DNA from: a virus
DNA: 25,450 nucleotides
Virus record (IMG/VR): IMGVR_UViG_3300007541_000193
Coordinates: 1-25,450 of that record
Reading direction: 5' to 3' (one strand)
In this document: piece by piece, positions 3,307 to 25,450 of the stretch
How positions within the stretch are numbered: the first letter of the stretch is position 1
Layout: each line of letters begins with the position of its first letter
Made by a program: the position numbers and the translations under genes
The notes under the pieces: model-generated
The model's input: only the letters and a program-made list of their open reading frames with translations
Told to the model about the DNA's origin: nothing
The model's database searches: none

Positions 3307-3843
3307 TTATTTCAACGCCGAAGCTAAATCAGAATGGTACTGATTATTTGTAAAGGCTACGATTACGTACCTGTTCCCACCGCCGACCTCTTTAACGCCG
3401 TGCTTTATATTTCCTGCGTGAATTGCAATTGATCCACGGGCGGGCTTTATTTCTACATCGTAATCTGGATAAAATATTTCTCCGCCAGAATAGGCTTCTG
3501 GGCCTGAGATATAAACTACAATTCCGTGTTCAACGTCTTGTCCTGAACCATTGCCATCAATGTGGACACTTTGGCCTGAGCCAGGACCGATAAACTGAAT
3601 CTCTTCTCTAGGGTAAAAATCGACAAATGGGATGTTTTGATCTTTAAGGAATTTAAAAATTCTATTACCAATGCTATCCATGATAGGGTCAGAAACTGGA
3701 AATGTCTTATAGCCGCCCAACTCTGGATCCGAAAGAAGCTCAGAAACTACATCAGAGTTCTCTTCAATAATCTTGTCTAAATACTCTAGCTCATAGTCTG
3801 ATAGAAAAGTTTCATGATAAAAAATCTTTTCATTAATCCACAT
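3307..3843 (-). CDS. 2OG-Fe(II) oxygenase, prolyl-4-hydroxylase-like, 178 aa
   Basis: I start at the ATG at 3843 because AGGAG sits six to seven bases before it; an ATG at 3876 lies inside the preceding gene. The double-stranded beta-helix core shows the iron triad H94-x-D96 (VHIDG) and H148 (IKHGV), with R158 as the expected 2-oxoglutarate anchor and SGGEIFYPDYDVEIKPARG between them, the usual P4H-like pattern. The family uses O2 and 2-oxoglutarate to hydroxylate protein side chains or other substrates. It is the last gene of the 5931-3307 operon. The substrate is unknown. Confidence 0.85.
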   Translation of the reverse strand: MWINEKIFYHETFLSDYELEYLDKIIEENSDVVSELLSDPELGGYKTFPVSDPIMDSIGNRIFKFLKDQNIPFVDFYPREEIQFIGPGSGQSVHIDGNGSGQDVEHGIVVYISGPEAYSGGEIFYPDYDVEIKPARGSIAIHAGNIKHGVKEVGGGNRYVIVAFTNNQYHSDLASALK

Positions 3844-4048
3844 CGCTATCTCCTGATTCAAGAATGCGAGTTTCATTCCTTACCGTATGTCCAAACTTCT
3901 CAACATATATCTGAATAAGTTTATAGGAAACGCCTAGCTCTTTAGAGAGTTCCCTTGCCGAACGATTCTTTGTTATATATTCGTTATATATCCACTGTTC
4001 GTCTTTGTAGGGCTTGTTACTCAGCAACGGTTTCAAAGTCTGTCTCAA
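3833..4048 (-). CDS. Small helix-turn-helix protein
   Basis: The core (SARELSKELGVSYKLIQIYV) is a clear helix-turn-helix of the homeodomain/resolvase-like type, followed by basic HTVRNETR, consistent with DNA binding. No ATG exists in the frame; TTG codons at 4048, 4036 and 4027 are possible starts and none has a convincing ribosome site, so the N-terminus is uncertain. It overlaps the upstream gene (stop at 4017) and the oxygenase downstream by 11 bases. It may regulate the phage or recruit another protein to DNA. Confidence 0.6.
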   Translation of the reverse strand: MRQTLKPLLSNKPYKDEQWIYNEYITKNRSARELSKELGVSYKLIQIYVEKFGHTVRNETRILESGDSDVD

Positions 4049-4235
4049 CCAGGTCCCAGGCTAGGATGTTTGAAACTGGCATTCTTGCTGACTTTGCCTC
4101 TTCTTCAGAATCTGCCTCTACAATTAGGGTTAGTGTTGACAAAACCTCATCAGTAACTGGGAAATCCAAATTTGTGTTATTTGCCCAGTCTGCTCTAACT
4201 ACATCTGGGATTGGCTTAAATACATACTTACTCAT
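4017..4235 (-). CDS. Protein of unknown function, 72 aa
   Basis: The ATG overlaps the stop of the upstream gene by eight bases. The protein begins MSKYVFKPIPDVVRADWANN and contains a strand-rich centre (LSTLTLIVEADSEEEAKSAR) that resembles a small alpha/beta domain, with an acidic end. No motif is recognisable. Together with the 62-residue gene it forms a coupled pair between the methyltransferase and the HTH gene; a joint function is likely but not defined. Confidence 0.55.
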   Translation of the reverse strand: MSKYVFKPIPDVVRADWANNTNLDFPVTDEVLSTLTLIVEADSEEEAKSARMPVSNILAWDLVETDFETVAE

Positions 4236-4416
4236 TAATTACTCCATCACTTACAAGTGCATCATAAATTTGCCCCTGAATTTTTTCAAGCTGGGGCCTT
4301 ACCTGGCTCATCATCTGCTCAATCTGATCATCTGGCAAGCTAGCACTCTGCATAGCCTCAAGATTGTTAGTCTCAGCAATAAGAACCATCTTCTCCACTA
4401 CTTCGTCTCGTGTCAT
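4228..4416 (-). CDS. Helical protein of unknown function, 62 aa
   Basis: AAGGA precedes the ATG by seven bases. The protein (MTRDEVVEKMVLIAETNNLE at the start, IEQMMSQVRPQLEKIQGQIY in the middle) is predicted to be nearly all helix, with Met/Leu spacing suggesting a coiled-coil or helical bundle. It follows the methyltransferase gene after nine bases and overlaps the next gene by eight. No family recognised. Confidence 0.55.
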   Translation of the reverse strand: MTRDEVVEKMVLIAETNNLEAMQSASLPDDQIEQMMSQVRPQLEKIQGQIYDALVSDGVINE

Positions 4417-4425
4417 TTTTATTCC

Positions 4426-5082
4426 TTACAATAATCTTTGTTTTGCTATATTAAATTGTTCTTCTGAAACATCATTATAAATAATATTTCTTCCTTTATT
4501 CTTTGCAGAAAGAAGGATAGACCCAGTTCCAGCCATTAGGTCTGCAACAGTATTACCTTTTTCTGTGAAAGCATCTATAATTATATCACACAACGCAAGA
4601 GGTACTGAGTCCTCAGTAAATCCTTCGTAGATATCTAATTCTAGCATGTGGAGCCAGGGGATGTCAATAACTAAACTATCAATTTTATCTGAATAGTAGG
4701 GACTTCCTTTGATAATATTTATAAAATACACCTGAGTATCTACATAGCCGTCATACATGGGATCATTACCAAATTCCCAAACAAGTGGTGCCTCAAACTT
4801 AAAATTAAAATTTTGAACAATCTTTGCAATAATTTCATACATGATAGGCCTGGCAGGCACACCCAAAAGTATTCTTCCATTATCTTTTAGTGCATAGTCC
4901 ATATGCCTAATAATATTCATTAGATTACTTAAATAGCTATCTTTGCCATCATTATGAATTTGTTGGTCCGCATTGCCATATAAATTTACTGTTGAGCTAC
5001 CTTCATACGGTGGATGTGTTACAAATAGGTCAACACTATTTTTTTCAAGAAAAATATTCCTTGCATCTTCACAATAAAACAA
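4426..5082 (-). CDS. DNA methyltransferase, beta-class N6-A/N4-C type, 218 aa
   Basis: Motif IV appears near the N-terminus as THPPYEG (residues 22-28) and the AdoMet-binding motif I near the C-terminus as DLMAGTGS (181-188). This IV-before-I order defines the beta class of amino-methyltransferases, with the target-recognition region between. Motif IV usually reads D/S/N-P-P-Y, so the histidine is unusual. The start is TTG at 5082, directly after the stop of the zinc-ribbon gene. No restriction enzyme gene is seen, so an orphan phage methylase that protects or marks phage DNA is most likely. Inactivity cannot be excluded. Confidence 0.8.
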   Translation of the reverse strand: MFYCEDARNIFLEKNSVDLFVTHPPYEGSSTVNLYGNADQQIHNDGKDSYLSNLMNIIRHMDYALKDNGRILLGVPARPIMYEIIAKIVQNFNFKFEAPLVWEFGNDPMYDGYVDTQVYFINIIKGSPYYSDKIDSLVIDIPWLHMLELDIYEGFTEDSVPLALCDIIIDAFTEKGNTVADLMAGTGSILLSAKNKGRNIIYNDVSEEQFNIAKQRLL

Positions 5083-5286
5083 TTACCATTTTCCAATCGG
5101 ACATTTTGCTCTTTGCAATGTTGTTTTTAATTGCATGAAACATCCACACTTAGAGCATCTTTTAGTTCTTGGCCTAAATGCTGGACAAGTGTTACAAATT
5201 GATAAACGATATTCTACCGTTTCTCTATCTGTTTTCTCTTCGCCAGGATTAAACAGGTCTGTAAACTTAACATCTTCTTCTGACAT
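5083..5286 (-). CDS. Six-cysteine zinc-ribbon protein, 67 aa
   Basis: Cysteines at 31, 34, 44, 47, 49 and 62 lie in the sequence ICNTCPAF, RCSKCGCFMQLK and AKCPIGKW. This matches a small phage/bacterial zinc-ribbon family (DUF6171-like, from memory). The start codon lies six bases after a TGCTATAAT box, so the gene is predicted to be leaderless and to head a transcript running into the methyltransferase. A clear paralogue lies at 11979-12224 in the tail region. Function unknown; metal binding is confident. Confidence 0.8.
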   Translation of the reverse strand: MSEEDVKFTDLFNPGEEKTDRETVEYRLSICNTCPAFRPRTKRCSKCGCFMQLKTTLQRAKCPIGKW

Positions 5287-5292
5287 TTTTAT

Positions 5293-5301
5293 ATTATAGC
5301 A
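5293..5301 (-). promoter_or_regulatory. Extended -10 promoter, leaderless
   Basis: On the minus strand TGCTATAAT followed by six bases (ATAAAA) and the ATG at 5286. It lies in the gap after the 2OG gene and would let the zinc-ribbon/methyltransferase part be expressed independently. Confidence 0.65.
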
Positions 5302-5307
5302 TGACTA

Positions 5308-5931
5308 CTAATCAGTAAAAAATTCAGTCTCAGAGACATTTCCCCGTTTGCCGTAAAATAAAACAAGGGTGTGTCTTTTCCCTGATTCCACTGGCTGCAC
5401 TTCGTGAATATGATCTACATCACCCTTAAAAAATATAAGAGATCCCTTGTCTGGAGATACCGAAAGATTATGTTGTGGAAAATAAATTTGCCCTCCACTA
5501 AAATCAACTCCAGACTGTGATGCATATAGCAAAGCAGAATATTCTATTTCTTCAGGAATCCCGTCGTCTCTCCACGGAGAGCCATCTAGCTTAGTACTAT
5601 CTGAATGCATCGGATTATATCCGCCTTCAGATATTTGAGAAAAGTTCATATTGACAAGATCTAAATCTATAGAGTAAAACTCTTCCATAGTGTTTTTAAT
5701 TTTATTTACAATATCTGATACAAACAATATTGCACTATTTTCTAGCTCGTCTTCTCCCAGCTCAGATGCTGGATTATTTATAGAAACTTTGGATGCCTCA
5801 AAAGAATTTTTCTGTCCAAGTGCTGAAGACATTCCTGGGCGGGGCTCTGGAATAAGTTTATTTTGTAAGCCACTTACAATCATATCTGCATCTTCATTAG
5901 ATATATAGTGCTTGATAATTTGAACTGACAT
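5308..5931 (-). CDS. 2OG-Fe(II) oxygenase, prolyl-4-hydroxylase-like, 207 aa
   Basis: Iron ligands are H109-x-D111 (MHSDS) and most likely H176 (HIHEV), with R186 as the 2-oxoglutarate anchor; SGGQIYFPQHNLSVSPDKG and LIFFKGD between them are typical of the fold. The first 100 residues are helical and less conserved, as usual in this superfamily. It is the first gene of the leftward operon; TAAACT six bases upstream of the ATG may be a weak -10 box for a leaderless start. It is divergent from the rightward gene at 5987. Substrate unknown; it shares the family with seven other genes here. Confidence 0.85.
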   Translation of the reverse strand: MSVQIIKHYISNEDADMIVSGLQNKLIPEPRPGMSSALGQKNSFEASKVSINNPASELGEDELENSAILFVSDIVNKIKNTMEEFYSIDLDLVNMNFSQISEGGYNPMHSDSTKLDGSPWRDDGIPEEIEYSALLYASQSGVDFSGGQIYFPQHNLSVSPDKGSLIFFKGDVDHIHEVQPVESGKRHTLVLFYGKRGNVSETEFFTD

Positions 5932-7895: not shown

Positions 7896-8615
7896 ATGGC
7901 AAATCCCGACATTGAATTTCCCAAATCTAAAGCGTCTAAATATGCAGACAAGGTTAGTCGTAATGATAGCTTACTGCAAGAAGCAGGGTACATAGCAGTA
8001 CCTGGACCAGCAGGACCCCAGGGCCCACAGGGCCCCGCAGGTCCAAAAGGTGAAAAGGGAGATGCGGGCCCAGTAGGACCCAAGGGTGAAAAAGGACCTC
8101 AGGGTGTACAGGGAAAAGACGGATCAGCCTATCTTCCAATACACGGACAGCACCCAGGATGGGCTAAGTATATCGACAAAGCTAATGCTGATCCAGTAAG
8201 ACTAGGTGCAACACGTGGCGAAGATGGCTGGGTAGTTTTACAACTTAAAAAGCCATTTGCAAAAGAAAACTATCAACCAAAAGGTTTTGTAGGAAACTTG
8301 TACAACGAAAATAGTTATCGCATAAATACCAAACCACTCAAGATTGGTGCAGGGCTTACAATAAAGTATGACTTTGAAATTGAAACATTCTCTTCAAATA
8401 CCGAAGTGTGGGTAAGGTCAGCTGTTCCAGGCACTCCAAAAGAAACAACCACATTTGGAGGATTCTTTAAATATGCCTACACTTATGAATTCTCAGTTGT
8501 CCATAATCTACATGTTACAGATGAGGCAGAAAGAACAGCAGGTATAAGGCCAGAAGTGCGTGCTGACCTTGATTCACTAATTAAGCTAAAAAGTATAACA
8601 ATTTCTGTATCTTAG
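7896..8615 (+). CDS. Collagen-like fibre protein with C-terminal beta domain, 239 aa
   Basis: Residues about 36-75 are near-perfect Gly-X-Y triplets ([19 protein letters not shown] and onward, rich in GPK/GEK), flanked by a short N-terminal region and a ~160-residue C-terminal domain containing [14 protein letters not shown] and several strands. Collagen-like stalks trimerise and project a binding head. The gene stands alone behind a leaderless promoter and is followed by another. High proline in the triplets makes it a candidate substrate for prolyl hydroxylation by the 2OG enzymes; not shown. Confidence 0.8.
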
Positions 8616-10820: not shown

Positions 10821-11513
10821 ATGGTAATTTCAATTTTTGGATTTACCTCAGCTGGAATGGCAGAGGTACCAGATCTTGGGAGCGGAACAACAACCCAGGC
10901 TGCAGCAGAAACCCTAATTACTGATGCTGGACTTACCGTTGGCACAGTAACTACAATTACAACTTATAACAATGCACTCGATGGTCTTGTAGAAAGTCAG
11001 GCCATAGCGGCAGGCACACTTGTAGACTACGGAACAGCAATTGATTTTGTAGTTTATACCTACACTCCAGCTCCACCATTCTTCCCACCGTATTTCCCAT
11101 ACTTTCCTTATTTCCCATACTTTGTGCCAGCTCCATTCTTCCCGTATTTCCCATTCTTCCCCTACTTCCCACCAAACTTCCCGTTCTTCCCATTCTTCCC
11201 ATTTTTCCCATATTTTCCACCCTTCTTCCCATTCTTCCCATTTTTCCCGTTCTTCCCATGGTTCGATGCAGGTGGCTGCGACTCTGGATGTACTAACGAC
11301 AACTACACATTTGCCGATAGTGGCTGTGCTTCAGGCACTGCATGGGGCACAAGGTGTATTTCTCCAAATGGTACAGTTTGTGCTGATTATGGAAAGCAGG
11401 GATGTATTCCTCCAACAACGCCTCCGTTCTTCCCTTATTTCCCATACTTTGCGGGCTGTGTTCCAGCATGTCAAGCTGGCTTCCAGTGTGTAGGTGGACA
11501 ATGTATTGGGTAG
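10821..11513 (+). CDS. PASTA protein with (F/Y)-F-P repeats and Cys-rich segments, 230 aa
   Basis: Residues 14-80 form a PASTA domain (EVPDLGSGTTTQAAAETL, DAGLTVGTV, GLVESQAIAAGTLVDYGTAI), a module that binds peptidoglycan or muropeptides. Residues 84-147 are a Pro/Phe/Tyr repeat built from (F/Y)FP triplets. The final 80 residues hold ten cysteines (153 to 228) with a second short FFPYFPYF stretch at 203-210. An AAGGA site precedes the ATG. The combination suggests a cell-wall adhesion appendage with a stiff proline-rich spacer. Architecture clear; role inferred. Confidence 0.8.
   Translation: MVISIFGFTSAGMAEVPDLGSGTTTQAAAETLITDAGLTVGTVTTITTYNNALDGLVESQAIAAGTLVDYGTAIDFVVYTYTPAPPFFPPYFPYFPYFPYFVPAPFFPYFPFFPYFPPNFPFFPFFPFFPYFPPFFPFFPFFPFFPWFDAGGCDSGCTNDNYTFADSGCASGTAWGTRCISPNGTVCADYGKQGCIPPTTPPFFPYFPYFAGCVPACQAGFQCVGGQCIG
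11059..11262 (+). repeat. DNA repeat encoding (F/Y)FP units, short array
   Basis: Degenerate tandem repeats of a TTCCCATTCTTC-type unit, nine bases per FFP triplet, with occasional three-base CCA/CCG insertions that add one proline. The repeat stays in frame throughout. A similar but longer array lies at 19426-19707. Confidence 0.8.
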
Positions 11514-11978: not shown

Positions 11979-12224
11979 TTGTCTGAGCTAACACCTTTTG
12001 AAAAATGGAAGCAGAGTCTGGGAGAGACCAGGCCCTGGGACGTTCTTAATCCAAATACGGAGTGGGCACCAAAAGAAGTGGCCGCAGAGCGATACGAAAT
12101 ATGCAAAAAATGTCCATTTTTAATTTCTGCAACTAAGCAATGCTCTAAGTGCGGATGTATTATGCATGTTAAGACAAGGCTTGCTAATGCCGAATGCCCT
12201 GAAGGCAAGTGGCATAAGGTTTAA
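11979..12224 (+). CDS. Six-cysteine zinc-ribbon protein, 81 aa
   Basis: Cysteines at 42, 45, 55, 58, 60 and 73 fall in ICKKCPFL, QCSKCGCIMHVKT and ECPEGKWHK, matching those of the 67-residue protein at 5083-5286; the first 40 residues differ. The start is TTG at 11979, supported by AGAAAG seven bases upstream. The stop overlaps the convergent lysozyme-like gene's stop by four bases. The presence of paralogues in a leftward and a rightward unit suggests a general metal-binding or partner role rather than a tail-only one. Confidence 0.75.
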   Translation: MSELTPFEKWKQSLGETRPWDVLNPNTEWAPKEVAAERYEICKKCPFLISATKQCSKCGCIMHVKTRLANAECPEGKWHKV

Positions 12225-16923: not shown

Positions 16924-18792
16924 ATGGCAACTAGAATGCAGCAAAGAAGGGGTACCGCAGCAGAGTGGACCTCGGCAGATCCAGTACTAGCAGCTGGAGA
17001 AATTGGTTACGAAACAGACACTGGACGTTTTAAGTTTGGTGATGGTGCTACCGCATGGAGTAGCATTGAATACTTCAGCAGTGCTAATGATATCATTGAT
17101 GGTGCTCCTGCTGCCCTTGACACACTTAATGAGCTAGCTGCTGCTCTTAATGATGATGAAAACTTTGCTGCAACCGTAACAACAGCACTTGGAAATAGAG
17201 TACTTCTACGAGTTGATACCGCAGACAACTGGGCAAATAGTGCAGCATCAGATCCAATTGATGCCTACGCCCTTGTTATTGAAGCAGATACTGGCAAGGC
17301 TAAGGTAAACGGCAACGATGATACAGTTGTCTTTGCTGGCCTAGACTATCTAGCAACTGAGGTTTATGTAGACGGAGCAATTGCAGCAGCAATTCCATCA
17401 ACTGTTGACTCAACTGAGATTGGATATCTTAATGGAGTAACCTCTTCTATTCAAGACCAGATCAACACACTGTCTGGAGAGCTTGACACAGCAGAAGCAG
17501 ACATCTCAACTGCTCAAGCAGATATTGTTACCAATTCTGGAGATATCTCAACGCTACAGTCTAGCGTTGCAACTGCACAGACAGATATCACCAACCTGCA
17601 ATCGGCAGTTACTGGTAATGATACAGACATTGCTACTTTGCAAACAGACAAGGCAAATCTTGATAGCCCAACATTCCAGGGTACCGTTGTTCTTCCAGCA
17701 ACAACCTCAATTGGAAGTGTTGATGGAACTGAAATTGGTTATCTAGATGGAGTAACATCAGGAATTCAAGCTCAGATTGACGGAAAGCTTGGAACTACTA
17801 CAGCTACCGCTACATATGCTCCACTCTCAGGACCTACATTTACAGGAACTGTTTCTTTGCCATCCACAACCTCAATTGGTAACGTAGATGCAACTGAACT
17901 AGGATACCTAGATGGCGTAACATCGGGTGTACAGGCACAGCTTGACGCTAAGGCAGATCTTGCCAGCCCAACATTTACAGGTACCGTTTCTGGTATCGAT
18001 AAGGCAATGGTTGGCCTTGGAAATGTTGACAACACTGCAGATGCAGACAAGCCAGTATCTACAGCTACTCAAACAGCTCTAGACCTAAAGGCCAATCTTG
18101 CTGGAGCGACATTTACTGGAGATGTGACAGTTGACACCAACCTTGTTGTTGAAGGAGACTTCACCGTAAATGGTACAAACTTCTCTGCAAGTGCAACAAG
18201 CATTACAATTGAAGACAACATCGTTCAGCTAGCACACCAGAACTCAGCCAACACGGTTGACCTAGGTCTTGTGGTAGCCTACAATGACGGATCAGTAGGA
18301 CACGCTGGTATCGTAAGAGACGTATCTGATGACACATGGAAGCTCTTTAAGGGAGTTGCTACTGAGCCAGCTACCACAGTTGCTTTTGCAGAGGGATCGC
18401 TTGATGACCTAGCTTTGAACAACCTAACAGCTGCTGGAGTTGTCTTTACAGACGGAACTCAGACAAAGGCTGGTGTCCCATCACTTACAGAGTTTGCAGA
18501 GAAGACTGCAAGCTACACTCTTGACACTCTTGACCACCAAGACAACATTGTCGAGATGAACTCTGCTAGTGCAACTACCTTTACAATTCCAACAGACGCT
18601 GCACTGGCATGGCCAGTAGGAGCATCAATGGATATCTTCCAAACAGGTGCGGGACAGGTAACAATCTCTGGAGACACAGGTGTTACTGTAAACTACACAC
18701 CAGGAAACAAGCTCCGTACTCAGTGGTCTTCTGCTACAATATTAAAGAGGGCATCAAACAGCTGGGTAATCTATGGAGACCTTACAGCTTAA
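16924..18792 (+). CDS. Long tail fibre, 622 aa
   Basis: The N-terminus MATRMQQRRGTAAEWTSADP followed by GEIGYETDTGRFKFGDGATA is the typical attachment domain of tail-fibre proteins (hyaluronidase/major-tropism-determinant-like start). It continues with APAALDTLNELAAALNDD (shared with the 14524 fibre), three copies of an xEIGYLDGVTSxIQAQ repeat, coiled segments, a PTFTGTVSLPSTTSIGN repeat set and the C-terminal domain (last ~95 residues) also present at 10179-10808. It is a trimeric adhesin. AGGAG precedes the ATG. Confidence 0.85.
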   Translation: MATRMQQRRGTAAEWTSADPVLAAGEIGYETDTGRFKFGDGATAWSSIEYFSSANDIIDGAPAALDTLNELAAALNDDENFAATVTTALGNRVLLRVDTADNWANSAASDPIDAYALVIEADTGKAKVNGNDDTVVFAGLDYLATEVYVDGAIAAAIPSTVDSTEIGYLNGVTSSIQDQINTLSGELDTAEADISTAQADIVTNSGDISTLQSSVATAQTDITNLQSAVTGNDTDIATLQTDKANLDSPTFQGTVVLPATTSIGSVDGTEIGYLDGVTSGIQAQIDGKLGTTTATATYAPLSGPTFTGTVSLPSTTSIGNVDATELGYLDGVTSGVQAQLDAKADLASPTFTGTVSGIDKAMVGLGNVDNTADADKPVSTATQTALDLKANLAGATFTGDVTVDTNLVVEGDFTVNGTNFSASATSITIEDNIVQLAHQNSANTVDLGLVVAYNDGSVGHAGIVRDVSDDTWKLFKGVATEPATTVAFAEGSLDDLALNNLTAAGVVFTDGTQTKAGVPSLTEFAEKTASYTLDTLDHQDNIVEMNSASATTFTIPTDAALAWPVGASMDIFQTGAGQVTISGDTGVTVNYTPGNKLRTQWSSATILKRASNSWVIYGDLTA

Positions 18793-18823: not shown

Positions 18824-19720
18824 ATGGCTAAGAAAGAAGCAGGTGGAAAGTCCTCTCAGCAGAATGACTTTCTACAACCACTAGCACCAACACTAAGCAG
18901 TGCTACAAATGTTGGAACAGGCAGGGCATACAATAACGGTGCTATTGAAGTAACATTTTCTCTAGATCCGCTATCTCCTCCTGCAACTTCTTATAATGTT
19001 TACGACAGCGGAAACAACCTGCTTGGATCTGGAAGCTCTTCGCCATTTACCGTAACTGGACTATCATCAGATACATCCTACACCGTATATCTTACTGCTG
19101 TAAACAATTCTGGAGAGTCAGACCCTTCTGGAACACAAACAGTTACAGTTACAACTGTACCAGCTACCCCAAGTGCTCCAACAGCATCCTCTACAACAGC
19201 AGATGTTGATGACGTTTCTTGGACAGCACCATCAAACGGTGGATCAGCCATTACCCTATATTCTTGGGAGTGTGATGATGGAAAGTCTGGAACTGATACT
19301 GGCACATCAATTACAGTTGCTCAGGAGGGTACAGGTAGCTCTACAAATGCATACCGTGTCAAGGCTACAAATGCTAACGGTGATTCAGAGTTTTCAGCTT
19401 ACTCTAATGCCGTTGATACCGTTGCACCATTCTTTCCACCATTCTTCCCGTTCTTCCCCCCATACTTCCCGCCATTCTTCCCATTCTTCCCCTTCTTCCC
19501 TTACTTCCCACCGTTCTTCCCATTCTTCCCGTTCTTCCCTTACTTCCCACCGTTCTTCCCATTCTTCCCACCGTACTTCCCACCATTCTTCCCATTCTTC
19601 CCGTTCTTCCCACCATTCTTCCCACCGTACTTCCCACCGTACTTCCCACCTAGGTTCGGACCATACTTCCCACCATTCTTCCCATTCTTCCCACCTAGAT
19701 TCACTAAGTACTTCCTCTAA
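18824..19720 (+). CDS. FN3 protein with long (F/Y)-F-P repeat tail, 298 aa
   Basis: Two fibronectin type III-like domains (about 20-112 with YNVYDSG, TGLSSDTSYTVYLTAVNNSG; about 113-198 with VSWTAPSNGGSAITLYSW) are followed by ~95 residues (203-298) of almost pure Pro/Phe/Tyr in FFP, YFP and PP units, ending PPRFTKYFL. AGGAG precedes the ATG. FN3 modules on phages bind carbohydrate on host cells; the repeat is likely an extended spacer or polymerising segment. It directly precedes the oxygenase cluster, the main reason to suspect hydroxylation of its prolines. Confidence 0.8.
   Translation: MAKKEAGGKSSQQNDFLQPLAPTLSSATNVGTGRAYNNGAIEVTFSLDPLSPPATSYNVYDSGNNLLGSGSSSPFTVTGLSSDTSYTVYLTAVNNSGESDPSGTQTVTVTTVPATPSAPTASSTTADVDDVSWTAPSNGGSAITLYSWECDDGKSGTDTGTSITVAQEGTGSSTNAYRVKATNANGDSEFSAYSNAVDTVAPFFPPFFPFFPPYFPPFFPFFPFFPYFPPFFPFFPFFPYFPPFFPFFPPYFPPFFPFFPFFPPFFPPYFPPYFPPRFGPYFPPFFPFFPPRFTKYFL
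19426..19707 (+). repeat. DNA repeat encoding (F/Y)FP units, long array
   Basis: About 280 bases of nine-base TTCCCATTC/TTCCCGTTC-type units with three-base proline insertions. Strong internal homology would allow in-frame length change by recombination or slippage. Antisense and +2-frame open frames here (Glu/Trp- or Ser/His-rich) are by-products of the repeat. Confidence 0.85.
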
Positions 19721-19731
19721 TAGGTAGCACA

Positions 19732-19761
19732 AAAAGCCCAGGGCACTAGTCCTGGGCTTTT
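19732..19761. terminator. Bidirectional intrinsic terminator closing the fibre array
   Basis: AAAAGCCCAGG (19732-19742), loop GCACTAGT, CCTGGGCTTTT (19751-19761): 11 perfect base pairs with an A-tract before and a T-tract after, so it can work in both directions. Confidence 0.85.
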
Positions 19762-19762
19762 G

Positions 19763-19771
19763 TGTTATAAT
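19763..19771 (+). promoter_or_regulatory. Extended -10 promoter fused to the terminator, leaderless
   Basis: TGTTATAAT begins two bases after the terminator stem; six bases (AGTGTT) later is the ATG at 19778. It starts the oxygenase cluster. Confidence 0.7.
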
Positions 19772-19777
19772 AGTGTT

Positions 19778-20515
19778 ATGAATGATTGGCATACAAAAGA
19801 TAGATCAGAAACATCTAGTAATAGGATGACAACAAGACAAACTGTAGAAGGTGTTACGGTAGAGAACCCAGCATTAGGCATTAATCTTTATAAAAATGCA
19901 ATATCAGCTGAAAACTGTCAAAAAATTATTAACACTTTAGAAAATAATTTAGGACCAGATAAAAAGTATGACTGGCAACCTGCCATGGTAACTGAGGCAG
20001 ACACCCCAGAAACATCTGCTAGACATTGTGTAGATTTTAAAATAGGCAAACACTTTAAGACACTGGGTGCCATAGATGATTTAAACAAAGAGCTGTACGA
20101 AGCTCACGAAATAACATTTGATTCAATTTTTCCAATATCTCAAGACTATGGACGTTATTGGGGCGTTGGGGTAAACTATTTTGAATCATTTAATTTTGTA
20201 AAATATGATGGGCCAGGAACTCATTTTAAAGTACATGCAGACCATGGTCCTGCTTATGTTTGTACTGTTTCCATTGTTGCTTATCTTAATGATGACTATG
20301 ACGGAGGAGAAATTTATTTCCCTAGGTTCGATCTAACCATTAAGCCAGAGCCAGGAGATGTAGTAATTTTTCCATCCACATATATTTATGAGCATGCATC
20401 ACAACCAATGATTGGTGGAACCAAGTACTCTGTCGTAGTAATGACAGACTACAACGATAGGGGAAACCTAAGGTACCACCCATATCGTCAAGAAGACCAG
20501 AAAGTAATATATTAA
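19778..20515 (+). CDS. 2OG-Fe(II) oxygenase, prolyl-4-hydroxylase-like, 245 aa
   Basis: The ATG at 19778 matches the leaderless promoter; a frame from 19760 would start inside the terminator. Iron ligands: H153-x-D155 (KVHADHG) and H206 (YEHASQP). The 2-oxoglutarate anchor position holds K216 (GTKYSVV) rather than arginine, as in its neighbour. NDDYDGGEIYFPRFDLTIKP is the typical P4H-like core. The N-terminal 140 residues are helical. It and the next gene form a paralogous pair. Probably hydroxylates a protein or small molecule; substrate unknown. Confidence 0.85.
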   Translation: MNDWHTKDRSETSSNRMTTRQTVEGVTVENPALGINLYKNAISAENCQKIINTLENNLGPDKKYDWQPAMVTEADTPETSARHCVDFKIGKHFKTLGAIDDLNKELYEAHEITFDSIFPISQDYGRYWGVGVNYFESFNFVKYDGPGTHFKVHADHGPAYVCTVSIVAYLNDDYDGGEIYFPRFDLTIKPEPGDVVIFPSTYIYEHASQPMIGGTKYSVVVMTDYNDRGNLRYHPYRQEDQKVIY

Positions 20516-20523
20516 GGTAAAAC

Positions 20524-21258
20524 ATGGTAGATAAACTAACAGCCACAGAGGGCAAAGAAGAACACGAAGACATCCAAAAAAGAATTGAAAGATTCTATAC
20601 TATTGACAAACAGACCTGGTCAAAAGTAGAAGAAGTCGGGCCAGGAATCTTTAAATTTAGCGACAATCTTCCAAAAGATATGAATATTATTCAACGACTA
20701 GAAGAAGTTATCCTAGATCCATCTAATCACTATAGCTATATGGATGCTATGGTAGGATATGGAATGAAAATTCCAGAGTATCGTGACTGTGTAGATTTTA
20801 AGTATAAGAAAACTGATATCGAGCATGATAAGTCAGAAGCTAGCCTAAAGCTGCAACAGTTATGGCAAGATGTATATGACAGAAATGTGCAGGCTGTTAA
20901 GTATTACGCAAGGCACTTTAATATTGGAGAACTTAGATACTGGGAAGCTATGAACTTTGTAAGATACGGCCCTGGGCAGCACTTCCAAGAGCACTCGGAC
21001 AACGGGTACTCCTATAACTGCATTGTATCCCTAGTTTCATATCCAAACGACGATTATGTTGGCGGGGAGCTTTATTTTAGACAACAAAATCTAACACTAA
21101 CACCAAAAGCAGGAGATCTTTTTGTCTTTCCGTCTAACTATATGTATGCTCACAGAGCAATGCCAGTAACTGAAGGTGTTAAATACTCTATCGTAACTAT
21201 GCTTGATTACTCAGACAAGTATCACAGGCCTGAATTTTATCAAGAGACTGGTAGCTAA
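20524..21258 (+). CDS. 2OG-Fe(II) oxygenase, prolyl-4-hydroxylase-like, 244 aa
   Basis: Iron ligands H157-x-D159 (QEHSDNG) and H210 (YAHRAMP), anchor K220 (GVKYSIV), core NDDYVGGELYFRQQNLTLTP. It shares with the preceding protein a (D/H)CVDFK motif about 70 residues upstream of the HxD and the lysine anchor, so the two are likely tandem duplicates. AAGG lies six bases before the ATG. TAATG links it to the DUF6065-like gene, which argues for joint expression. Confidence 0.85.
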   Translation: MVDKLTATEGKEEHEDIQKRIERFYTIDKQTWSKVEEVGPGIFKFSDNLPKDMNIIQRLEEVILDPSNHYSYMDAMVGYGMKIPEYRDCVDFKYKKTDIEHDKSEASLKLQQLWQDVYDRNVQAVKYYARHFNIGELRYWEAMNFVRYGPGQHFQEHSDNGYSYNCIVSLVSYPNDDYVGGELYFRQQNLTLTPKAGDLFVFPSNYMYAHRAMPVTEGVKYSIVTMLDYSDKYHRPEFYQETGS

Positions 21259-21977
21259 TGCAGATAAATGTTTACAAGGGCTTTAAGGATAAGCCAGCGA
21301 TTATTGATCAGCTGGCCTTAACTAGAGATTGGATGGATTTTACTTTTGATAGACACGCCTATCATTGCTTTCCAATGACCCTTGCAAATAGGTTAGGATG
21401 GGGAATTTCTTTCCCAGAAGATATTGTTATTAAATGGGACGGGATTAATGATTCTACACCAGACCATGTTGAAATAATTAAAGGACACGATTATGTTTAC
21501 GGGGGCAGGGGAAATAGTACAATAAGTTTTTCTACAGGGCTAGTGTTTAATTCAGAAGAAAACGTAAGTCTGCTAACCATGCCAGTTCCAAATCAATTTA
21601 TTCGTGGAACACAATGTATCACAACAATAATTAGCACTTCTGTGCTTGTAGGGGACATCCCAATTGCCTGGATGATAACAGAGCCCCACATAGAAATTAC
21701 AATACCAGCTGGAACCCCAGTTGCAGCGATTGTTCCAATTTCACTTTCAGACGTTCAGTCTTATGATCTAACAATTCATTCGGGGTCACCAGAATATATG
21801 AAAACTGCTGAATGGAATAATAGAATGCAAGAGCGAGGCAGAGTTTCTCAAGAAAAGAATCAGGCAGGAGAGTGGACACATTATTATCGAGATGCCACAG
21901 ACCATACAGGAGAGCCCCTAGGCAAGCATGAAACCAAAAAGATTTTAATGAAAGTAACAGACCTATCAGATGAATAA
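21258..21977 (+). CDS. DUF6065-like beta-sandwich protein, 239 aa
   Basis: FDRHAYHCFPMTLANRLGWG near residue 30, followed by FPEDIVIKWDGIN, matches from memory the DUF6065 family (unknown function, found in phages and bacteria). A second conserved part is EPHIEITIPAGTPVAAIVPI near 142-161; the C-terminal ~70 residues are polar and helical. The gene is TAATG-coupled to the upstream oxygenase. Its relation to 2OG enzymes is unexplained; it may present or bind the substrate. Family call moderate, function unknown. Confidence 0.65.
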   Translation: MQINVYKGFKDKPAIIDQLALTRDWMDFTFDRHAYHCFPMTLANRLGWGISFPEDIVIKWDGINDSTPDHVEIIKGHDYVYGGRGNSTISFSTGLVFNSEENVSLLTMPVPNQFIRGTQCITTIISTSVLVGDIPIAWMITEPHIEITIPAGTPVAAIVPISLSDVQSYDLTIHSGSPEYMKTAEWNNRMQERGRVSQEKNQAGEWTHYYRDATDHTGEPLGKHETKKILMKVTDLSDE

Positions 21978-22701
21978 AATTATTAAATTTATTAATACAC
22001 GAGCCTGGTCAAACATGGATAGTCCATCGGCCCCAGCACCCGCAGGTCAAAAAAATATTCCAGAGTGGTATCGTGATGCAGATAGGTTTGCCAAAATGCC
22101 AAACGGAGATCATTACGTAGACCCAATGAATCAGGGTAAAATTCCAACATGGAAGGCCTGTCCAGCCATATATGACATAATGACCACTGGGTATGTTTTT
22201 AGAACGCCATGCGATATTGAATTTAAAAAAGTAAATGGTAAAATTACTGGAAAAACGCTAGATTCAAGCTATGCAGATTTTTTGCACTCTAGAGACCCTA
22301 TGCCACAGTTTGTCGTACCACATGGCTATGATGAAGTGCACTTTGCATGGTACTCTGACTGGACTGTCTCTACTCCCGAAGGATATAGCGTTTTATACTC
22401 TCAACCATTTGGAAGATATGACCTACCCTTTATGACAACTAGCGGAATTATAGATAATGACAAGGTGGCGATGTCTGGCACAATGCCATTTTTTATACAA
22501 AAAGGCTGGGAGGGCATTATTCCAGCTGGAACCCCCTATTCACAACTAATCCCCTTTAAAAGAGAAGACTGGGATTCTGAGTGGGACAAGCAAAGCCCCC
22601 TAGATATTCATAAGAAAAAAATGGATGCCAATAGGACTTTTCGTGTAAAAGACGGTGGCGTTTATTTGAAAAGTTTTTGGTCTAAAAGAAAATATAGCTA
22701 A
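21970..22701 (+). CDS. Protein of unknown function with IPAGTP motif, 243 aa
   Basis: The N-terminus (MNKIIKFINTRAWSNMDSPS, then IPEWYRDADRF) and the middle (KACPAIYDIMTTGYVFRTPC) resemble a group of cyanophage/marine-phage hypothetical proteins. The segment GWEGIIPAGTPYSQLIPFK corresponds to IPAGTPVAAIVPI of the preceding DUF6065-like protein, and both have a long tryptophan/tyrosine-rich beta region, so a common fold is likely. The ATG overlaps the previous stop by eight bases. It is placed between two pairs of 2OG genes. Function unknown. Confidence 0.6.
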   Translation: MNKIIKFINTRAWSNMDSPSAPAPAGQKNIPEWYRDADRFAKMPNGDHYVDPMNQGKIPTWKACPAIYDIMTTGYVFRTPCDIEFKKVNGKITGKTLDSSYADFLHSRDPMPQFVVPHGYDEVHFAWYSDWTVSTPEGYSVLYSQPFGRYDLPFMTTSGIIDNDKVAMSGTMPFFIQKGWEGIIPAGTPYSQLIPFKREDWDSEWDKQSPLDIHKKKMDANRTFRVKDGGVYLKSFWSKRKYS

Positions 22702-22709
22702 GTTAATCG

Positions 22710-22718
22710 TGATATAAT
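22710..22718 (+). promoter_or_regulatory. Extended -10 promoter, leaderless
   Basis: TGATATAAT, six bases (GTAGCT), then the ATG at 22725. ATAGCTA (22694-22700) and TAGCTAT (22720-22726) form an inverted repeat around it. Confidence 0.65.
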
Positions 22719-22724
22719 GTAGCT

Positions 22725-23447
22725 ATGGAAAATCAAACATTAGCAAATGATATAAATCACGGACCTGAGCCAGAAAGAATCTCCATTACCCCATCGGGAT
22801 ATTATGGAGACTCTGCCGATATGATACAGGCTAGAGAAAACTTTATGACTGAGGAAGAGCTGACAAAGCTAAATGATTTTATTCGCAACAACACAGTCTG
22901 GGACATCACAGAAACTCATTATAATGACGAAGGAACTGTGATTTATGATTCCGATTATTGGAAAGATCGTGTAGCCTGCTATCCTTCAATAGCAAAAACT
23001 AACACAGAAGTTCCCGACATTATTGAGGGAATGGTTGCTAGGCTTAAAAAAGAGGTAGATGCATTTTATAGAGTAGATGCCTGGCCAACAAGCCCAGCAA
23101 TGGTAAGATGGCTGCCAGGCCAACTACAAATGCCACACGCAGACAAAGAGTTGCACGTAGGAGACGATGCGGGCAAGCCAAATGATTTTCCTTGGTATGA
23201 TCTAGCAGGACTATTTTATATTAATGATGATTACGAAGGTGGAGAGTTATATTTTCCAAATCAAGGAATTCAGTTTAAGCCCAAAAAGGGAGCTGCATAC
23301 TTTTTTCCAGGAGACATGAATTTTATACATGGAATTACAGCAGTAGAGTCTGGCATCAGGTACACAGTACCGTTTTTCTGGACTATTCGTAAACACTATA
23401 CTGAAGAAGAGTGGGCTGAAAAAATGGCTTTAGAGGAGCAAGAGTAA
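22725..23447 (+). CDS. 2OG-Fe(II) oxygenase, prolyl-4-hydroxylase-like, 240 aa
   Basis: Iron ligands H138-x-D140 (MPHADKE) and H202 (FIHGITA), anchor R212 (GIRYTVP), core INDDYEGGELYFPNQGIQFK followed by KPKKGAAYFFPGD. Residues 36-130 are helical, with an MTEEELTKLNDFIR segment. It starts a second leaderless transcript and is TAATG-linked to the next oxygenase. Unlike the first pair it has the usual arginine anchor, so the cluster holds at least two subfamilies. Confidence 0.85.
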   Translation: MENQTLANDINHGPEPERISITPSGYYGDSADMIQARENFMTEEELTKLNDFIRNNTVWDITETHYNDEGTVIYDSDYWKDRVACYPSIAKTNTEVPDIIEGMVARLKKEVDAFYRVDAWPTSPAMVRWLPGQLQMPHADKELHVGDDAGKPNDFPWYDLAGLFYINDDYEGGELYFPNQGIQFKPKKGAAYFFPGDMNFIHGITAVESGIRYTVPFFWTIRKHYTEEEWAEKMALEEQE

Positions 23448-24187
23448 TGGCATATATTTACACAGATATCAAAGATGAAGACTTTATTGTTTGGAAAGAT
23501 GAACCAAATGATAACCCAAAAAGTATTTTGGGAGTTAAAGACAATAGAATTGTAGAAATTCCAAATTTTGTAGACGATGAAACCGCAGACAGCATGGTAA
23601 AATATTTTGAGCACTATGCTGAAATGTGGGGACACATTGCATTTTACGGCTCATCTGGAATGGGAATTATGCCAGATGATCCGACAATTGACGATTTTAA
23701 TTTGCCCAGAAACTTTTTTGAACAAATCAAAAATGCTTATCAAGCAACCGTAGCACACGTATTTGGAAGGCCAGTAAAGCCTAACACATCTCATGCACAA
23801 AAGTGGATGGTTGGAGGATTTGCAGCCCCACATTCAGATAACTCTGATTTTGAAGGAGTCCCAAACTCTTTTCAGATTAATAAATACGTAGGCATTTTAT
23901 ATCTAAATGATGACTACGAAGGTGGACACCTATACTTTCCAGATCATGATATAGACTTTAAACCACAAAAGCTTTCATTTATTGTTTTCCCAGGTGGCGT
24001 TGAAAATGTACATGGTGTTAGCGAAATTACTGAAGGCACTAGGTACACAATGGTTTCTTTTTGGGACTATGAAGAAGCAGAATACTCTGAAGAGCAACTT
24101 GAGGCTTTTGAAGAAGAACTCAAGATTGTTCGTGAAGAGCAGGCAAAGCAGAGAGAAGAGTGGGAAAGCGGAAACAAGTATGCATAG
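23447..24187 (+). CDS. 2OG-Fe(II) oxygenase, prolyl-4-hydroxylase-like, 246 aa
   Basis: Iron ligands H129-x-D131 (APHSDNS) and H189 (NVHGVSE), anchor R199 (GTRYTMV), core LNDDYEGGHLYFPDHDIDFK. The last ~35 residues are a charged helix ending REEWESGNKYA, which resembles the end of the next protein (RQQWLETGDPGF), marking these two as tandem duplicates. GAGGAG lies before the TAATG junction with the previous gene. Substrate unknown. Confidence 0.85.
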   Translation: MAYIYTDIKDEDFIVWKDEPNDNPKSILGVKDNRIVEIPNFVDDETADSMVKYFEHYAEMWGHIAFYGSSGMGIMPDDPTIDDFNLPRNFFEQIKNAYQATVAHVFGRPVKPNTSHAQKWMVGGFAAPHSDNSDFEGVPNSFQINKYVGILYLNDDYEGGHLYFPDHDIDFKPQKLSFIVFPGGVENVHGVSEITEGTRYTMVSFWDYEEAEYSEEQLEAFEEELKIVREEQAKQREEWESGNKYA

Positions 24188-24195
24188 GAGATAGC

Positions 24196-24873
24196 ATGTT
24201 AGACGTAGAAAAGATTATTCATAAAGACGATATAGTAGAATATCCAGGATTTTTAAGTCCAGAAGAGTCGCAAAGGCTTATTGATTATTATGAGAGCGAT
24301 GCAGACTCCTGGGAGCTAACATGCTTTTTTAATGCTAGAGTAATGGATCCAAGGGCACCGATGGCTAAGGGTGTGTATCCAGAAATTAATGATGATTACT
24401 TTAATGGTCTTAGAGAAAAGGCAAAAGAGTATGGAGAGGCCGCTATGGGCAGAGGTTTGAGAAATCTTACTCTTAGTGCACACAAGTGGCTACCAGGAGC
24501 CTTTGCTTCAGATCATGCAGATAATGCGGAACTTGATGGAACTCTGAATGCATGGCAAGAAAATAAGATGGTAACCATTATTTATCTTAATGATAATTAT
24601 GAAGGTGGGGAGCTAACCTTTAGGGACCACGGGCTTTCAATTGCACCAAAACAGGGAACTATGGTTGCTTTTGACGTAGGATTTGGAAATATTCACGGGG
24701 TTAATGAAGTAACCTCTGGGGAAAGATGGACAATGCTCTTGTCGTGGGATTGGGCAGACTCTGTGTATCCAGAAGGATTTTTGGAACAGCTAAAGGCCGA
24801 AAGAGACGGTATGTTGCCAGAACAACAGGTGCAAAGACAACAGTGGTTAGAAACGGGTGACCCAGGATTTTAA
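24196..24873 (+). CDS. 2OG-Fe(II) oxygenase, prolyl-4-hydroxylase-like, 225 aa
   Basis: I start at the ATG at 24196, which has AGGAG immediately upstream; the longer frame from 24160 overlaps the previous gene. Iron ligands H107-x-D109 (SDHADNA) and H167 (NIHGVNE), anchor R177 (GERWTML), core LNDNYEGGELTFRDHGLSIA. The DNAxxxG(V/T)xN segment after HxD and the C-terminal helix match the preceding enzyme. It is part of the 22725-25450 run. Confidence 0.85.
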   Translation: MLDVEKIIHKDDIVEYPGFLSPEESQRLIDYYESDADSWELTCFFNARVMDPRAPMAKGVYPEINDDYFNGLREKAKEYGEAAMGRGLRNLTLSAHKWLPGAFASDHADNAELDGTLNAWQENKMVTIIYLNDNYEGGELTFRDHGLSIAPKQGTMVAFDVGFGNIHGVNEVTSGERWTMLLSWDWADSVYPEGFLEQLKAERDGMLPEQQVQRQQWLETGDPGF

Positions 24874-24874
24874 T

Positions 24875-25450
24875 ATGATTAAAGATATTCCTTATAAAGA
24901 AATTTTACCAAGGGTATTTGTATATCCTGGACTTATTTCTAATCATAAAGAATACTTGGCAATTCTTGATGGACTTCATAATGGTAAAAGAAAGCGATAT
25001 CTATTTAAAGAGCCCGAAAATTGGAGCATTTTTGGAACCACTATGTCTTATGAGGCAAGATTTAATGAAACTCGTCTTCTAGAGGATGTTACTAAAGCCA
25101 TACAAGAAAATCCTGAAAACGAAAAAGACATTCTTGCAGAAAAGAAAATGATTGAAGAAATTGAAAATGCATTTCTAATATCAACAGAACATTATTTACA
25201 ACACTTTCAGCTAACTGATGCAGCAAAAGATTGGATAATTTCTGCACCATCTTATGATAGGTATACTCCAACACCAGAGGAGCATATCAATGGAAAAGAT
25301 CACGGCCAAAGACTTGCTATGTCTCACCATAGCGACTACCAAATAGAGCGTGAAGAGATGCCAGGGTTTAAGTATGTGCTAACAGTAACTCACTATATAA
25401 ATGATGATTATGACGGCGGAGAAGTAAGATTTTTAAACTCTGGTAAAGAA
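24875..25450 (+). CDS. 2OG-Fe(II) oxygenase, prolyl-4-hydroxylase-like (3' end outside window)
   Basis: The 192 visible residues start MIKDIPYKEILPRVFVYPGL after an AGGA site and overlap nothing. The first iron-ligand pair is H152-x-D154 (SHHSDYQ), followed by YINDDYDGGEVRF, so the fold is clear, but the distal histidine and 2-oxoglutarate anchor lie beyond the window. The N-terminal 140 residues differ from the other copies and include a charged helix (about 76-100). It is the sixth consecutive-cluster oxygenase and the eighth in the window. Confidence 0.8.
   Translation, partial: MIKDIPYKEILPRVFVYPGLISNHKEYLAILDGLHNGKRKRYLFKEPENWSIFGTTMSYEARFNETRLLEDVTKAIQENPENEKDILAEKKMIEEIENAFLISTEHYLQHFQLTDAAKDWIISAPSYDRYTPTPEEHINGKDHGQRLAMSHHSDYQIEREEMPGFKYVLTVTHYINDDYDGGEVRFLNSGKE

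Follow-up and report, generated by a model that had tools for sequence, protein, structure and literature searches.

Prolyl-hydroxylase-like oxygenases in an ordered array behind an (F/Y)FP-repeat tail protein of uncultured phages: a candidate tail-protein maturation cassette

An oxygenase array behind an FN3 tail protein

The window analysed here, the whole of the linear IMG/VR record IMGVR_UViG_3300007541_000193 (25,450 bases), is a fragment from an uncultured tailed phage. At its far end lies the gene of a tail protein with an FN3 domain, whose last third is a tract of (F/Y)FP repeats (hereafter FFP). It is followed on the same strand by six genes for Fe(II)/2-oxoglutarate (2OG) oxygenases, with two other genes, encoding a DUF6065 and a PHROG 7084 protein, between the second and the third. 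A reading of the bare DNA letters had proposed these oxygenases as a fibre-hydroxylation system; the array behind the FN3-FFP protein is indeed real, and the two interposed genes (21258-21977 and 21970-22701) were absent from that original prediction. The genes of this cassette, with letters for the conserved slots or clades of oxygenases, are the following, prolyl 4-hydroxylase being abbreviated to P4H and prolyl 3-hydroxylase 1 to P3H1.

16924-18792, plus strand: tail-fibre-like protein with an Mtd N-terminal domain (PF18454, 3e-15), directly upstream of the cassette here and in most related loci
18824-19720, plus strand: FN3 tail protein (FN3 part 18824-19411; fn3 domain PF00041, 3.4e-8; tail PHROGs 7440, 382 and 6977), with homologues in hundreds of contigs
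19427-19696, plus strand: (F/Y)FP tract of about 90 residues in translation, the presumed substrate; the peptide is kept with varied Pro codons in 68 loci
19760-20515, plus strand: oxygenase slot A, P4H-like (H159, D161, H212, K222; PF13640, 2e-11)
20524-21258, plus strand: oxygenase slot B, P4H-like (H157, D159, H210, K220; PF13640, 4.5e-14)
21258-21977, plus strand: DUF6065 protein (PF19541, 4.9e-29), an invariant cassette member
21970-22701, plus strand: PHROG 7084 protein, or d7084 (phrog_7084, 1.8e-32), an invariant cassette member with a predicted dUTPase/dCTP-deaminase-like fold (weak match)
22725-23447, plus strand: oxygenase slot C, prolyl 3-/4-hydroxylase-like (H138, D140, H202, R212; PF13640, 2e-6)
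23447-24187, plus strand: oxygenase of clade I (H129, D131, H189, R199; PF13640, 3.7e-8)
24160-24873, plus strand: second oxygenase of clade I (PF13640, 4.8e-12); its true start is probably the ATG at 24196, after GGAG
24875-25450, plus strand: oxygenase cut by the window end (HSD motif)

The cut gene is complete in a second contig, L438 (open reading frame (ORF) 3882-4865), which is near-identical to the window (2724 of 2726 bases). Beyond the window end, L438 continues with one more oxygenase (4858-5448) and then with a gene for a structural-type protein of 1233 residues and tail genes. Thus the array has seven members and sits inside a tail module.

All eight oxygenases encoded in the window, two of which lie outside the array, carry the HxD of the facial triad that characterizes the Fe(II)/2OG oxygenase superfamily. 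As had been read from the letters, the seven complete ones also possess the distal His and, ten residues later, a Lys or Arg anchor for 2OG (Lys in slots A and B, Arg in slots C and I), and the catalytic residues are invariant within each oxygenase clade. PF13640 scores above its cut-off in six of the eight, namely five of the six array genes and the solitary gene at 5308-5931; the other solitary gene, at 3307-3876, is below that cut-off and is recognized only by PHROG 61 (1.8e-10), and the cut gene matches no Pfam model. We disregarded the names "DNA endonuclease", "DNA endonuclease V" and "ferrochelatase" (PHROGs 2297, 274 and 3531), because the matched region is a plain 2OG oxygenase domain; phage records that use them for such genes are probably misannotated.

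The predicted fold of the array enzymes is that of prolyl hydroxylases. An AlphaFold2 model of slot A, made from 22 relatives (predicted local distance difference test (pLDDT) 84, predicted template modelling score 0.83), has prolyl hydroxylases as its 50 best PDB fold matches, apart from one PiuC; they include Chlamydomonas P4H-1, PHD2, the P4Hs of Bacillus anthracis and Pseudomonas putida, vCPH of the chlorovirus PBCV-1 (5c5t) and human C-P4H-II. In profile searches of PDB sequences, B. anthracis P4H is the best match of slots A and B, with LH3 next, while P3H1 leads for slot C (2.1e-7) and clade I (1.1e-11), both of which also match P4H, and is matched by clade E (1.5e-3). By these resemblances the array enzymes are closest to peptidyl-prolyl hydroxylases, with a putative activity on peptidyl-proline, and the array combines P4H-like and P3H-like members, a mix that may mean both 3- and 4-hydroxylation.

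A tree of 451 array oxygenases resolves into a few large clades; identity is about 60% (47-69%) among members of one clade and 21-39% across clades. Among 53 non-redundant cassettes, 29 show the order FFP-A-B-DUF6065-d7084-C and 13 the order FFP-A-d7084-B-DUF6065-C, and in both slot C is followed by members of D/E/F or G/I. The window has the first of these orders, with FFP A B DUF6065 d7084 C I I followed by two more. Slots A, B and C, separate orthologous clades with 23-39% identity among the three, are single-copy in 49, 50 and 52 of the 53 cassettes, respectively, and DUF6065 in all 53. Single orthologues kept for so long in a fixed order argue for different tasks, in line with the earlier suggestion that the copies serve distinct target sites and not dosage. 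Tract length correlates weakly with the number of enzymes (rho 0.34, p 0.018, uncorrected for lineage). A relation of tract composition to the enzyme set (D, E and I differ, p 0.001-0.05) is confounded by lineage and was left unused.

Co-occurrence of the tract and the array

A DNA pattern for the peptide FP(F/Y)FP(F/Y)FP(F/Y)FP matched at least 120 IMG/VR stretches, nearly all of which encode FN3 or PASTA proteins carrying the tract. For comparison we took 120 IMG/VR loci picked by an arbitrary 14-mer, the median G+C being 0.37 in both sets. There are 450 oxygenase ORFs in 120 FFP loci (4.02 per 10 kb) against 27 in the 120 random loci (0.30 per 10 kb), where they are about 13-fold rarer, and three or more oxygenases occur together in 75 of the 120 FFP loci and in none of the random ones. 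The oxygenases of the FFP loci lie on the same strand as the tract and downstream of it, with almost no exceptions.

This linkage holds in both directions. Over all collected loci, near-copies and some contigs present twice included, 163 of the 176 Phe/Tyr-Pro tract ORFs with sufficient room have slot A or B no more than 3 kb downstream, and 132 of the 135 clade-A genes with sufficient room are preceded by an F/Y/P-rich tract ORF at most 3 kb upstream; the tract filter was passed by one of 3795 ORFs of the random loci, a poly-Pro ORF. Some clade-A genes that appear as exceptions for want of FFP bear diverged tracts (FCPSFCP, FPHFPP), and in others slot A is preceded by sulfotransferase- or methyltransferase-like genes. 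The cassette is in none of 119 bacterial-genome stretches with FFP, in which the matches are simple-repeat ORFs and one oxygenase match (L226) was found.

FN3 homologues that carry another tract provide a natural control. In a search made with the FN3 part alone, the tract being left off, A/B/C oxygenases are present in 74 of 74 clusters (80% identity) of homologues with an FFP tract and at least 2.5 kb downstream, and in none of the seven clusters with another tract (FSFVPFGVFGFSPF or YSFVPYSFTP); the corresponding Fisher p of 3e-10 ignores relatedness. After thinning to 76 rows, A/B/C are found in 68 of 68 FFP rows and 0 of 8 other-tract rows. At the level of whole records, which may be fragments, strong clade-A matches (>330 bits) occur in 8 of 8 FFP records and 0 of 13 others.

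Instead of the array, FN3 proteins with an FSFxPFG tract have directly behind them one to four tandem copies of a family of about 220 residues, HKFFE, with the conserved series HKFFE...HDH...GHPH...RITIAYD (HDH...H...R pattern). We observed this arrangement in L509, L511, L516, L529, L531, L541, L562 and L564. At record level HKFFE is present in 13 of 13 other-tract records versus 1 of 26; it also occurs apart from the FSFxPFG tract, since the records of L404 (the one exception among the 26) and L546 (YSFVP) hold it away from any tract, in other modification-gene clusters. HKFFE is possibly another modifying enzyme; as a remote oxygenase it gave no hhalign match to slot A and none in the PDB.

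The comparative evidence speaks strongly for an array in the service of the FFP tail protein. The original prediction had proposed proline-rich fibres in general as the target, and the two sides of this claim fare differently: it is supported for the FFP tail protein, given the two-way linkage, the lack of the array where homologous FN3 proteins carry another tract and the closeness of the enzymes to peptidyl-prolyl hydroxylases, and is not supported for the collagen-like proteins. The latter were rejected as linked substrate, since their cluster occurs in only 22 loci and their place is not fixed; the tract linked to the enzyme genes is (F/Y)FP, and no Gly-X-Y substrate gene is specifically linked to them.

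Oxygenases are not confined to such cassettes, however. Solitary ones are present in 21 of the 120 random viral loci, so other roles exist. Cyanophage 2OG-Fe(II) oxygenases (PHROG 61; PMC3037559, PMC12774648) belong to the same superfamily and are the closest named phage relatives of the array enzymes (27-40% identity); a link to 2OG/nitrogen or to DNA repair has been proposed for them (PMC3037559). If the array likewise served 2OG metabolism or signalling and consumed 2OG to shift the nitrogen or energy state of the host, as put forward for the cyanophage enzymes (PMC3037559), the distinct ordered slots and the dependence on tract type would be left unexplained, and we consider this extremely improbable.

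Companion proteins and the proposed modification of the tail protein

The DUF6065 and PHROG 7084 families are distant homologues (hhalign E 2e-6). We modelled d7084 (pLDDT 88); its top Foldseek matches in the PDB are all dUTPases or dCTP deaminases, if weak ones (best E 2.5e-3, TM-score at most 0.32 by query), and in BFVD mostly uncharacterised phage proteins, then dUTPases. DUF6065 is tied to this predicted dUTPase-like fold via hhalign. A solitary relative of PHROG 7084 is encoded by haloviruses HF1 and HSTV-2; it was rejected as cassette kin, no oxygenase being annotated beside it.

Some lineages have in addition a PF11397 (GT60) protein between the tract and slot A, above the cut-off (3.7e-15 to 9.3e-23); this protein is in none of the 120 random loci, and the window encodes no glycosyltransferase. 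The metal-binding motif of GT60 is DxH. It reads DSH or DGH in the more distant copies and CGH in the copies beside slot A, the activity of which is doubtful because of this change:

L404, 8971-9978: PF11397 (GT60)-like gene with CGH for DxH
L427, 8404-9414: PF11397 (GT60)-like gene with CGH for DxH
L434, 6466-7479: PF11397 (GT60)-like gene with CGH for DxH

The founding member of PF11397 is Gnt1, whose activity is the transfer of N-acetylglucosamine (GlcNAc) to hydroxyproline (Hyp). L404 and L427 also hold, between tract and slot A, a family with the series MPINADTSPNI...HMDQ...H and no Pfam match, which resembles one more divergent 2OG oxygenase. Genes of sulfotransferase, methyltransferase and Asp/Asn-hydroxylase type are present in other lineages.

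We propose that this locus serves the maturation of a tail protein, and think it likely that its enzymes hydroxylate prolines of the tail protein's own (F/Y)FP tract during virion assembly, late in infection. Since no repeat of a different kind is accompanied by these enzymes, hydroxylation by the phage of its own tail fibre is the most likely reading. From these patterns we infer activity, substrate, regiospecificity, timing, physical effect and accessory roles as follows. The long tract of the FN3 protein would be the substrate of an enzyme series made of slots A and B, P4H-like with a Lys anchor, and of C, E and I, prolyl 3-/4-hydroxylase-like with an Arg anchor; two accessory proteins, for one of which a dUTPase-like fold is predicted, complete the set. 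The tract prolines would be divided among the enzymes by position or by sequence context, giving 3-Hyp, 4-Hyp and possibly hydroxylated Phe/Tyr at some sites, and the very hydrophobic tract would become polar and stiffer before tail assembly. In some relatives, the hydroxyproline could next receive a sugar from the GT60-like transferase.

The enzymes might instead act on the FN3-FFP protein mainly at Phe/Tyr or through cross-links, and not on proline: the tract is about two thirds aromatic, at least seven enzymes exceed the need of Pro 3- and 4-hydroxylation, and for one enzyme of clade I there is a weak match, well short of the cut-off, to a model of a cyclophane-peptide oxygenase (YhhC, 1.2e-4). 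Among solved structures, however, slots A, B, C, E and I are nearest to prolyl (and lysyl) hydroxylases, and we regard action mainly on Phe/Tyr or by cross-links as unlikely.

Several points weigh against proline hydroxylation of the tract. Some prokaryotic P4Hs of the same fold act on EF-Tu or bind it (PDB titles 5v7y, 4iw3); FFP tracts without a nearby array exist, of the PASTA type (10821-11513 in the window), which the enzymes may modify in trans or leave untouched; no role suggests itself for the dUTPase-fold pair; and the GT60 copies beside slot A have the altered motif described above. The FN3 tree needs four tract changes, three of them forced by well-supported branches, and with only three to four independent changes a conservative independent-pairs sign test gives p = 0.25. 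Every pair agrees in direction, and the strength of the FN3 control is this consistency and not a p-value.

The EF-Tu enzymes and the solitary oxygenases of random loci would fit an array that modifies host proteins or surface molecules to aid infection, its place behind a tail gene being operon history. A host substrate is not expected to follow the type of tract, as the array does on homologous FN3 proteins, nor to need some seven conserved slots beside it, and we give this explanation little chance. Gene neighbourhood cannot fully separate enzymes that act on the tract from enzymes that travel with the tail module. The array lies inside such a module, between the Mtd-like fibre and, in L438, the 1233-residue structural protein; tail modules recombine as blocks, and the tract changes are few, so that tract and array could have been inherited as a single block without the one being the substrate of the other. 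Yet the exchange retains the FN3 backbone and swaps the tract together with the genes just downstream, and the slots retain their order and intact catalytic residues, which makes mere linked inheritance very unlikely.

Hydroxylation of the tract by the phage's own enzymes would have a viral precedent. PBCV-1 is reported to encode its own collagen prolyl hydroxylase (vCPH) and to have 4-hydroxyproline in its proteins (Eriksson 1999, cited in PMC9301287). There too a P4H-fold enzyme, the vCPH that is one of the top structural matches of the slot A model, is thought to act on the virus's own proline-rich proteins; PBCV-1 is a eukaryotic virus, whereas the phage cassette has seven diverged enzymes beside one tail gene, lacks the Gly-X-Y repeat and includes accessory proteins of DUF6065/PHROG 7084 type. 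No such ordered array is known from PBCV-1. Among 50,697 records of cultured phages none matches the cassette DNA or DUF6065, and a full-text literature search, with most subscription papers outside its coverage, gave no description of the FN3-FFP cassette.

A second likeness is to Skp1 of Dictyostelium and Toxoplasma, where the prolyl 4-hydroxylase PhyA acts first and Gnt1 then puts GlcNAc on the Hyp (PMC3515798, PMC11570480). A P4H-like enzyme and a PF11397/GT60-like transferase share one cassette in some phage relatives only; the window differs in having no such transferase, and the subgroup beside slot A in its CGH. Collagen-type hydroxylation (P4H, P3H1, LH3) also sets mixed 3-/4-hydroxylase-like enzymes before a repetitive Pro-rich protein, but the repeat is Gly-Pro-Pro in collagen and (F/Y)FP(P) in the presumed phage substrate. 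In ribosomally synthesized and post-translationally modified peptides, a repetitive core sits on a fixed carrier beside tandem modifying enzymes, and core and enzymes change together; the phage product would differ in being a virion tail protein and not a released peptide.

A broader proposal, for which we see nearly even chances and which we advance tentatively, is that tail modification is built from exchangeable units, combining an unchanging FN3 carrier with an aromatic-Pro repeat tract and a set of enzymes that fits the tract and is replaced together with it. The (F/Y)FP tract would pair with the ordered prolyl-hydroxylase array and its two accessory proteins, and FSFxPFG with the one to four tandem copies of the unrelated HKFFE family; the virion would then bear dense hydroxyproline, glycosylated in some lineages, outside any eukaryotic system.

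Among the auxiliary genes of aquatic viruses, prolyl-hydroxylase-like ones are relatively frequent, and according to a recent survey their use by viruses "remains cryptic" (PMC9301287); in structural annotation human EGLN3 is the most-matched human protein among phage proteins (PMC12774648). The cassette points to a concrete candidate substrate in one gene neighbourhood, testable by co-expression. If the proposed hydroxylation is true, phages make tail fibres rich in hydroxyproline by a series of enzymes that rivals the one for animal collagen in complexity, the slot set is a convenient series in which to study the recognition preferences of individual hydroxylases, and the DUF6065 and PHROG 7084 families gain a context.

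Other genes of the window and of related contigs

Four further genes of the window bear on the original prediction:

10821-11513, plus strand: second FFP protein (PASTA, FFP and a Cys-rich end; PF03793, 1.9e-6)
3307-3876, minus strand: solitary 2OG oxygenase outside the conserved slots (HID, H159, R169)
5308-5931, minus strand: solitary 2OG oxygenase outside the conserved slots (PF13640, 8.5e-9)
7896-8615: collagen-like protein (PF01391)

The second FFP-repeat protein and the collagen-like protein are real, as had been claimed. The former lies away from the array and has similar proteins in related contigs; it is a possible second substrate. The two minus-strand oxygenases had been listed together with the array; this grouping is not supported, as they are not members of the conserved slots.

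The window also encodes two small DUF6171-like CxxC proteins (5083-5286 and 11979-12224), of a family found in about 30 FFP loci. WhiB is an actinobacterial family. Its presence (PF02467) in 6 of 30 FFP records, which are 6 of the 10 longer than 60 kb, makes actinobacterial hosts likely for a part of the FFP group. In six loci (L045, L065, L099, L100, L118 and L500), the FN3-FFP protein has an intein/Hedgehog-like (Hint) reading after the tract, and these Hint-like ends suggest self-processing of the tail protein.

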